NCBI GenBank assembly: GCA_020073185.1
Contig: JAIQFT010000012.1
Location: 1 to 64,000, forward strand
From: Terriglobia bacterium
GTDB taxonomy: Bacteria > Acidobacteriota > Terriglobia > Terriglobales > Acidobacteriaceae
DNA length: 64,000 bases
Direction of reading: 5' to 3'
How positions within the stretch are numbered: position 1 is the stretch's first letter; each line of letters starts with the position of its first letter. Under the pieces are notes generated by a model, which was not told the origin of the DNA, did not search any database, and worked only from the letters and a program-made list of their open reading frames with translations. This document shows positions 18,406 through 20,301 of the stretch, one piece after another. The position numbers were made by a program, and so were the translations under genes.

Positions 18406-18418
18406 CTGTCAGCTTCAT
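18405..18418 (+). repeat. two heptamers between stop and next start
   Basis: GCTGTCA and GCTTCAT fill the gap between the TAG (18403-18405) and the Nudix ATG at 18417. Only two units, listed because they match the style and word (GCTGACA/GCTGATA) of the array at 31091. Confidence 0.35.
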
Positions 18419-18851
18419 GAAACGTGATTATCCGGATCGGCCGCTGGTCGGCGTGGGTGCGGTGATCGTGCGCGACCACCGCGTGGTGGTGGTGCAGCGC
18501 TCCGCCGAGCCGCTGAAGGGGCACTGGTCCATTCCCGGCGGCGCGCTCGAGGTTGGCGAAACCCTGCGCCAGGGCGCCGCCCGCGAGGCACTGGAGGAAA
18601 CCGGGTTGCAGATCGAGGCGTTCGACGTGCTCGATGTTTTCGACAGCATCTACCGCGACCACGAAGGCCGTGCCCGCTATCACTACGTGCTGATCGACTT
18701 TTTCTGTCGCGCGGTGAGCGGCGAACTCAGGGCCGGTGGCGATGCTGCGCAAGCAAGGTGGATCACGCGCGAAGAGGTGGCGAATTTCGCGATCACCGAA
18801 ACGGCGCAGAAGGTGATTTGCAAGGCGCTGGACCGGGAACAGGTTCAGTAG
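18417..18851 (+). CDS. Nudix hydrolase
   Basis: 144 residues. The Nudix box is intact: GGALEVGETLRQGAAREALE followed by ETGL matches GX5EX7REXXEEXG. The N-terminus GVGAVIVRDHRVVVVQRSAE is the usual substrate-binding strand of the ADP-ribose pyrophosphatase/MutT-like subgroup, so it likely cleaves a nucleoside diphosphate derivative in the cytoplasm. The exact substrate cannot be told. It starts 11 bases after the preceding gene, with no obvious separate promoter. Confidence 0.9.
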   Translation: MKRDYPDRPLVGVGAVIVRDHRVVVVQRSAEPLKGHWSIPGGALEVGETLRQGAAREALEETGLQIEAFDVLDVFDSIYRDHEGRARYHYVLIDFFCRAVSGELRAGGDAAQARWITREEVANFAITETAQKVICKALDREQVQ

Positions 18852-19052
18852 CCGATGTCATCCCGAGCGAGGAAGGGCTCCCACGCGTTTCTACCGGGGT
18901 TCCCAGCACGCCTGTCTTTCGCGTGCTGGGGTGGCCGTGCCCGGGAACCCCGAGTCGAGGGATCTGGGTGTTCCCTCTCTCGGCTACACCAATTCTGAAA
19001 CTGCTCTGATCGTTGAAATTTGTTCTAACCAACGCGACCAACGACGCTTCCC

Positions 19053-19096
19053 AAAACAAAGCGACCCGCGGCTCGATTGCGGCACGCGGGTCGCCG
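19053..19096 (-). terminator. minus-strand intrinsic terminator
   Basis: GCGACCCGCG pairs perfectly with CGCGGGTCGC (19062-19071 and 19084-19093 on the plus strand). On the minus strand the stem is followed at once by TTTGTTTT. On the plus strand no T-run follows, so the direction is minus. Confidence 0.7.
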
Positions 19097-19262
19097 GTAG
19101 TCTGTTGAGATTGGCCTGAGGCGGTCACTCTAATCGTTGCCCGGCGCGGCTTGCTGCCTGGGGCGACTGCGACCTGTGAGCCTCCGGGACTCCAGCACTG
19201 CTCTGGAGTGGCGTTTGGGCCAAACACACCGGAACTAGAGGTTTGGTTTAGAGCGTACCGCT

Positions 19263-19310
19263 CTAAGCCTCAGACACCTCACTGCGGTTTTGTATATGAC
19301 TGTCAATCAT
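19263..19310 (-). CDS. 15-codon ORF behind an extended Shine-Dalgarno
   Basis: ATG at 19310-19308, stop TAG at 19265-19263, encoding MIDSHIQNRSEVSEA. It lies 12 bases after AGGAGG within the 18-base rRNA-complementary tract, and a hairpin overlaps its stop. Could be a leader peptide or a chance frame; homology unknown. Confidence 0.3.
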   Translation of the reverse strand: MIDSHIQNRSEVSEA

Positions 19311-19454
19311 TGACCTGGACCACCTCCTTTCTCAGTGTGCGGCCAGATTAATACACGCCGCAGGACGCCGTCAAATTCGGCTGGGCTCGCCTTCATTACT
19401 GTTCAGGTGCTGCTTTGGCGGGTTCGGGCGCGGAATTTGCTTGATTTCCCCATT

Positions 19455-19569: not shown

Positions 19570-20301
19570 ATGAGCCCCATTTCCATCAGCGTGCTGCTGG
19601 GCCTGACCGCCGCCGCCGCCAACGTGTTCGGCGGCGCGGTCATCGCGTGGAAGCGGTGGCATTACAGCTACCTGAAATATTTCGTGGCCCTCGGTTCCGG
19701 ATTCATGCTGGCCACCGCGCTGATGGAGATGGTGCCGGAGAGCGTGCGCCTGCGCGGACGAGACGCCGGGTTCCTGGTGCTGGTCGGCTACCTGATTGTT
19801 CATTTTTTCGAGCACACGGTCTCGCCGCATTTTCATTTTGGCGAGGAGACGCACGAAGACGAGTTCGTGCAGAAGCACAAGTCGTGGTCGGTACTGCTGG
19901 GGCTGGTGATCCACACCTTCTTCGACGGCATCGCCATCGCCTCCGGTTTCTTGGTTTCCACCGGGCTGGGGTGGGTCATTTTTTTCGCCGTGTTCCTGCA
20001 CAAGATTCCGGAAGGCTTCACCGTGGCCTCGGTGATGCTGGCCAGCGGCCGCAGCCGCGCGTTGGCGTGGGGATCGTCGGTGCTGTTGGGCGCGGCCACG
20101 CTGCTCGGGGTGCTGACCATGGTGATCACGCGGCAGGCGGTGAGCGTGGGGCTGCCGGTCTCGGCGGGTGTCACCATCTACGTCGCGGCCTCGGACCTGA
20201 TTCCGGAAGTCAACCGCGAGCCCGGGATCAAGATGGCGCTGGTGGTGTTTCTCGGCGTGGGATGTCTCTTCCTGATGGACCACGTTTTACATGTGCACTA
20301 G
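19570..20301 (+). CDS. ZIP-family metal transporter
   Basis: 243 residues with about eight TM helices. The metal-site signatures of ZIP proteins are present: HTFFDGIAIASGF in TM4 and HKIPEGFTVAS in TM5, with a His/Glu-rich loop (FHFGEETHEDEF) between TM3 and TM4. Such proteins import zinc or another divalent cation into the cytoplasm. A start codon ATG sits 23 bases after an octamer-repeat array. No clear Zur box was seen. Confidence 0.88.
   Translation: MSPISISVLLGLTAAAANVFGGAVIAWKRWHYSYLKYFVALGSGFMLATALMEMVPESVRLRGRDAGFLVLVGYLIVHFFEHTVSPHFHFGEETHEDEFVQKHKSWSVLLGLVIHTFFDGIAIASGFLVSTGLGWVIFFAVFLHKIPEGFTVASVMLASGRSRALAWGSSVLLGAATLLGVLTMVITRQAVSVGLPVSAGVTIYVAASDLIPEVNREPGIKMALVVFLGVGCLFLMDHVLHVH

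Follow-up and report, generated by a model that had tools for sequence, protein, structure and literature searches.

The window, that is, the whole 64,000-nucleotide stretch of Terriglobia bacterium DNA analysed here, harbors on its minus strand a locus without annotated gene, flanked by a NUDIX gene (18417-18851, plus strand) convergent with it and by a Zip transporter gene (19570-20301, plus strand). Read on the minus strand, the locus displays in order a promoter-like pair, a Shine-Dalgarno tract (SD1), a mini-ORF, a hairpin enclosing the stop, an extended structured region, a conserved box and a terminator. The promoter-like pair (19347..19374), read from the sequence, is composed of TTGACG (19374-19369) and TATTAAT (19353-19347), and the same TTGAC...TATTAAT layout is present in the congeners G001, G002 and G003. 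A strict promoter scan of the window listed none at this locus, as the spacing of 15 falls outside the limits of the scan. At the opposite end, an intrinsic terminator (19053..19094) can be read directly from the sequence, with a 10-bp stem (19094-19085 with 19070-19061), a 14-base loop and the T run TTTGTTTT; its stem carries compensatory changes in the alignment. It was missed by a simple scan, which permits loops of 3-8 only. Promoter and terminator positions thus predict a transcript of about 288 nt (19053..19340, minus strand), which agrees with the minus-strand RNA first proposed for this locus while being slightly longer than the 230-280 nt then expected. Folding of the region 19050-19345 on this strand was better than that of 200 out of 200 shuffled sequences (z -3.84). 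No nearby minus-strand gene lies downstream of the RNA in the window. The 15-codon ORF, the hairpins, the terminator and the lack of a downstream gene, all part of the original prediction, can therefore be read in the window sequence.

SD1, AGAAAGGAGGTGGTCCAG (19315..19332, minus strand), is located near the 5′ end of the predicted transcript. As a search for 16S rRNA in the assembly itself and in three congeners (G000-G003) found none, the 16S tail, GGCTGGATCACCTCCTTTCTAAAG, was taken from G034, a genome of the window's taxonomic family. SD1 is complementary to this entire 3′ end through 17 Watson-Crick pairs and one G-U, as had been claimed for an 18-base tract, with a computed duplex energy of -32.2 kcal/mol. 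It is the sole match at up to 3 mismatches in the window, where 0.02 are expected from shuffles, and the sole match at up to 2 mismatches in the 4.66-Mb genome.

Comparison with other genomes revealed conservation well beyond this tract. By BLASTN, 24 of 61 relatives match the locus, including the same-genus genomes G001, G002 and G003 at 90-95% identity. An alignment of 23 sequences from the window's family and near relatives (A1) displays conserved SD1, GAGGTG, stop codon and a 3′ box, GGCCAATCYCAACAG..ACCGG, present in the window as GGCCAATCTCAACAG (19102..19116, minus strand). A sequence model covering the 5′ region (R2), trained on 59 sequences from the window's family and some Actinomycetota among others, matches the window, itself part of the training set, at 19250-19339. 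At E <= 1e-4, 68 of 247 acidobacterial genomes, 29 of them from the window's family, and 63 of 149 actinobacterial genomes each yielded a single full-length R2 match. At E <= 0.01, the acidobacterial count rises to 92 of 247; only matches at E <= 1e-4 were counted for prevalence, the weaker ones, mostly confined to model positions 5-36, being presumed to reflect mainly SD1 alone, and one of them is the 16S antisense of G034. Among the 16 genomes behind chosen loci, 12 gave one full-length match, and the remaining four (three Rhodobacteraceae and one Citrobacter) matched mainly at SD1. R2, which hardly detects the alphaproteobacterial (Rhodobacteraceae) form, had no match in 199 Pseudomonadota genomes. 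An exact pattern search matched 41 of 297 acidobacterial genomes; its backwards control also matched in several genomes, and part of the hits fell inside protein genes (such as L165, L166, L170 and L171), so that prevalence was taken from R2.

Models built without SD1 were also used. The covariance model R1, which matches the window (again within its training set) at 19093-19286, was run over 100 loci picked by SD1 only. At E <= 0.03, 10 of its 11 matches lay immediately past SD1 and on the correct strand, in loci from Acidobacteriota, Actinomycetota, Zixibacteria and Sumerlaeota/BRC1. It had no match on the 8 loci antisense to 16S among the 100, and none was found in place on Bryobacterales and Rhodobacteraceae loci. 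In a less independent test on 9 further actinobacterial loci, the R1 match overlapped that of R2 in 6. R3, an actinobacterial profile, did not match the window RNA and reached other acidobacterial loci weakly (E 0.002-0.07, best E 0.002).

Genome contigs scanned for exact copies of the 18-mer yielded at least 119 loci, of which, among the matches listed, 116 were long enough to test and 10 are antisense to 16S. These antisense loci are what would favor reading SD1 as a chance match or as an rRNA-operon fragment read in antisense. The window locus runs on into a conserved RNA and matches other genomes along its length. In addition, a mini-ORF at Shine-Dalgarno spacing ending with a strong Shine-Dalgarno sequence just before its stop is found, among the matches listed, in 99 of the 116 loci and in none of the 10 antisense ones, compared with 22 of 1160 random positions. 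BLASTN conservation and this combined test refute the chance or antisense reading, whose probability we regard as practically negligible. The 99 loci, among the matches listed, come from Acidobacteriota, Actinomycetota, Rhodobacteraceae, Rokubacteria, Zixibacteria, Sumerlaeota/BRC1, Nitrospirae and Planctomycetota, these names being the deposited labels, mostly of MAGs. By sequence comparison, the RNA gene is thus not a product of chance; members of the window's family conserve it, and it reappears in other Acidobacteriota, in Actinomycetota and in further phyla, a breadth that the original prediction had missed.

Two planctomycete loci (L119, 4723-4740, plus strand; L142, 2337-2354, plus strand) harbor SD1, a mini-ORF and a Shine-Dalgarno sequence near the stop without GAGGTG. 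Separately, a record titled Bordetella parapertussis (L110, CALQCC020000012.1) carries the same RNA and has the same length (114164) as contig G054:C12 from the window's class; its title looks wrong.

The mini-ORF, MIDSHIQNRSEVSEA, extends over 15 codons plus TAG (19263..19310, minus strand), and a second Shine-Dalgarno sequence, GAGGTG (SD2, 19275..19280), is positioned nine bases ahead of the stop. Among 128 distinct cases with SD1 and GAGGT(G/C), an open frame that begins with a start at Shine-Dalgarno spacing runs in register with GAG-GTG in 111, compared with 13 and 10 for the alternative registers. Of 159 distinct cases with SD1 and GAGGTG, 147 have their first in-frame stop immediately behind GAG GTG NNN NNN NNN, compared with 1 and 1 of 159 in the other frames. 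The counts of these tests, like those of the codon tests below, include related loci of the same clade, near-identical rows having been partly removed. The stops of the 147 are TAG in 102, TGA in 26 and TAA in 19; the predominance of TAG might reflect a preference for release factor 1. In Rhodobacteraceae, 16 of 17 loci carry a purine-rich Shine-Dalgarno sequence (AGGAGG, GGGAGG, AGGGGG and similar, pairing with the anti-Shine-Dalgarno at about -8 to -11 kcal/mol) whose distance from the stop is almost unchanged, with a peptide that differs from those of the GAGGTG type. This Shine-Dalgarno sequence at a fixed distance from the stop of a mini-ORF, absent from the original prediction, is a feature that we found undescribed in the open-access literature searched.

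The open frame and the very strong SD1 could indicate a gene for a functional micropeptide, the more so as the 131 distinct mini-ORFs (11-22 codons; starts ATG 87, GTG 31 and TTG 13) share a hydrophilic composition rich in Ser, Arg, Thr and Cys. Analysis of single-base codon differences in these ORFs revealed no synonymous excess in frame, with 49 synonymous and 194 nonsynonymous changes; the shifted frames gave 90/173 and 38/241, all as pair counts that reuse sequences and are not independent. The conserved Glu-Val residues arise because GAGGTG encodes them, and GAGGT is shifted out of frame in part of the Rhodobacteraceae, which also speaks against a selected peptide. We consequently hold a micropeptide to be improbable. 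Random synonymous recodings yield an equally strong SD2 in about 18-19% of cases. T-ending codons dominate the 131 ORFs (third base T 45%; AGT 184 times), although many of the genomes are GC-rich; open structure, slow codons or another cause might account for this. Since the frame and stop tests are positive and no synonymous excess is detected, translation itself and the place where it ends seem to be under selection, and the residues of the peptide seem unimportant. The existence of a minus-strand RNA gene whose mini-ORF is translated, as first suggested, is in this respect well supported by comparison.

SD2 is also predicted to be one strand of a helix. Its 5′ strand, GGTGTCTG (19271..19278, minus strand), overlaps SD2 (GGUGnCUG) and pairs with CAGn.ACC beside the terminator, represented in the window by CAGACTACC (19096..19104, minus strand). 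Pairing holds for 96.7% of the cells in the window's family and its near relatives, where the variable position shows six pair types. In 21 Actinomycetota the value is 93.3%, with a covariation score of 0.331 versus 0.123 shuffled, and in 30 Bryobacterales-type acidobacterial loci it is 94.2%, with a score of 0.258 versus 0.224. The covariation score was reached by 0 of 500 shuffles in each of the three clades, and it drops when the partner is shifted by 1-3 columns. Other, weaker measures were reached more often: both-side pair changes by 47 (window's family), 41 (Actinomycetota) and 11 (Bryobacterales) of 500 shuffles, and pair types by 83, 1 and 11, respectively. In an unanchored search for SD2 partners over 128 loci, native sequences scored 19.6 and foreign ones 18.4 (p 2.8e-6), a small effect with a top 5% rank in 15 of 128 loci only, so that the claim rests on the anchored alignments. 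The covariation proposed as a check on this RNA is therefore present in the window's family, Actinomycetota and Bryobacterales, and the helix between SD2 and its 3′ strand, with compensatory changes in these three clades, is a second feature found undescribed; this partner strand had not been noticed in the original prediction either. A further hairpin, TTAGAGCG-GTA-CGCTCTAA (19248..19266, minus strand), encloses the stop codon with 89.1% of cells paired, in a form confined to the window's family and its near relatives.

The position of the helix bears on whether the RNA is a leader or attenuator that couples translation of the mini-ORF to the expression of a downstream gene. Such a gene exists in some clades: arfB, for ribosome rescue, follows the RNA in 14 of 18 Rhodobacteraceae loci (2 without it, 2 incomplete), and rpmE, for ribosomal protein bL31, in 18 of the 37 Bryobacterales loci with enough sequence. 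However, the window and its congeners lack a downstream gene of this kind, and about half of the Bryobacterales loci have kept the RNA without rpmE, which makes a free-standing role more likely. In the window, the 3′ partner of SD2 abuts the terminator stem without overlapping it, so that no antiterminator is evident. The translation-linked attenuator originally listed among three options is not borne out in the window, and we consider attenuation rather unlikely for the RNA as a whole. Both arfB and rpmE are tied to the ribosome, which hints at translation.

A trans-acting role was also considered, in which the RNA would base-pair either through its anti-Shine-Dalgarno-like 3′ strand or with the anti-Shine-Dalgarno of free 30S subunits, translation of the ORF being incidental. 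SD1 alone could cover the 16S tail, the 3′ strands resemble the anti-Shine-Dalgarno sequence, and the peptide residues are not conserved, all of which would fit such a role. Pairing alone, however, does not explain why the start, the frame and the distance between SD2 and the stop are kept, and we give this possibility a low probability. Within the RNA, the anti-Shine-Dalgarno-like segment GACCGCCTC (19118..19126, minus strand) is complementary to GAGGTGGTC of SD1 and is a weak candidate for pairing with it. Across 133 loci this pairing was above shuffles overall (p 1.7e-4), and it was marginal against flanking DNA in 129 loci (p 0.02); it is thus weakly supported.

On balance, we lean towards a free-standing RNA gene, belonging to a widespread bacterial group resembling the Ms_IGR-5 family and acting through ribosome occupancy. 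Comparison supports a first step in which SD1, complementary to the whole 16S tail and placed 5′ in the RNA, loads ribosomes onto a mini-ORF of usually 11-22 codons. Since the last sense codon lies six bases past GAGGTG, about where a start codon would be, the anti-Shine-Dalgarno could pair with SD2 at termination, when this codon occupies the P site. From spacing only, we infer that the ribosome at the stop could be held by SD2 after release of the peptide, and that the small subunit may remain on SD2 once release and splitting have occurred. As SD2 doubles as one strand of the covarying helix, whose partner sits against the terminator, a held ribosome may keep the helix open; when ribosomes are scarce or fall short of the stop, the RNA would close, with the helix lying against the terminator. 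The output might be the parking, counting or titrating of terminating ribosomes or 30S subunits, gauging the supply of ribosomes, or else an anti-Shine-Dalgarno-like 3′ strand exposed only while ribosomes occupy the RNA. Among the three functions first put forward, a ribosome-titrating or, more broadly, ribosome-binding RNA is the nearest to this occupancy reading, titration itself being conjectural.

As a tentative extension, one ancient RNA could serve as a built-in ribosome gauge, in which the strongest possible Shine-Dalgarno sequence loads, a throw-away mini-ORF is read, and a second Shine-Dalgarno sequence aimed at the stop grips again. The idea would cover many Acidobacteriota and Actinomycetota, where the RNA is single-copy, as well as Rhodobacteraceae and other phyla, where it recurs. 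If correct, an uncharacterised small RNA of mycobacteria and streptomycetes would be one case of a cross-phylum RNA coupling termination to folding, and the Shine-Dalgarno sequence at the stop would represent a new regulatory principle, the termination-coupled gripping of the small subunit. It would then become testable whether an RNA lets cells sense ribosome supply or termination, and whether post-termination subunits are held by a Shine-Dalgarno sequence at a stop codon. The signature of SD1, a mini-ORF and SD2 nine bases before the stop would offer a fixed and simple guide to further members.

Among known systems, a 6S-like RNA, the last of the initial options, can be set aside: at gathering scores the window has no Rfam match, the 6S covariance model finds nothing in it up to E 10, and the ORF is conserved. 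A tmRNA was likewise rejected, as ARAGORN found none in the window. In transcription-attenuator leader peptides such as trpL, a short translated ORF precedes a terminator; unlike these, the window RNA has no regulated gene downstream and its residues are not diagnostic codons, and we know of no counterpart of SD2 at the stop among such leaders. BjrC68 (RF02353), a small RNA of Bradyrhizobiaceae, has no match in the window; a weak one (24.4 bits, cut-off 39) lies beside the 3′ end of the L038 RNA.

CC2171 (RF01867), a Caulobacter small RNA, shares GAAAGGAGGUGAUCCAG at its 5′ end and a terminator-like hairpin. The window scores 19.2 bits with this model, far from the gathering score of 75, and Rhodobacteraceae loci reach up to 38.9 bits (E 1e-4), also below the cut-off. 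Likened through the Rfam model rather than the Caulobacter sequence itself, CC2171 is probably the alphaproteobacterial form of this RNA. According to the accessible parts of the publications, it is listed in Mesorhizobium huakuii (PMC5596092) and among the structures revised in Rfam 15 (PMC11701678), and the accessible part of PMC11005374 holds nothing on it.

For Ms_IGR-5, the accessible parts of the sources report RNA-seq support in S. lividans (PMC8079986), a small RNA unit in S. avermitilis (PMC8780764) and an RNA longer than first described in M. smegmatis (PMC10454040); the accessible part of PMC3828370 does not mention IGR-5. Its homologues in M. abscessus and M. smegmatis are described, in the part of PMC4974804 available, as carrying ribosome-protected reads, with the authors' warning that ribosome footprints occur on many non-coding RNAs; these reads agree weakly with the ribosome-occupancy reading. 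The search for an ordinary class, proposed at the outset, thus led to two related Rfam families, Ms_IGR-5 and CC2171, for neither of which a function was found in the open-access literature.

The closest known relative is Ms_IGR-5 (RF02471). This actinobacterial small RNA was reportedly first described from Mycobacterium smegmatis by Li et al. in 2013. The window copy stays under its 45-bit gathering score and is unlisted even at E 10; one of 41 genomes of the window's family, G028, exceeds the cut-off with 49.5 bits, an Actinoalloteichus locus (L075) reaches 95.3 bits and a Zixibacteria locus (L040) 55.9 bits. Like the window RNA, Ms_IGR-5 displays GGAGGUGGUCC at the 5′ end, a mini-ORF, and GAGGUG nine nucleotides from the stop; the Rfam consensus itself reads GAGGUG, nine bases and UAG, in frame with a UUG start. 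The consensus also places SD1 near the 5′ end and ends with a 3′ box, GGCGAAUnCC..CAG.CACC, and a terminator. The pairing of SD2 with a CAG..CACC-like 3′ strand before the terminator, found for the window and for Actinomycetota, is not that of Rfam: in the RF02471 structure line, SD1 is joined to the codons that follow GAGGUG, and the helix between SD2 and the 3′ strand is missing from the model. Ms_IGR-5 and CC2171 could thus prove to be parts of one family, in which case Rfam could join entries that are now separate. As judged from sequence comparison, the RNA of the window is a real, conserved and ribosome-engaging RNA, a diverged acidobacterial branch of this known and unexplained small RNA family.
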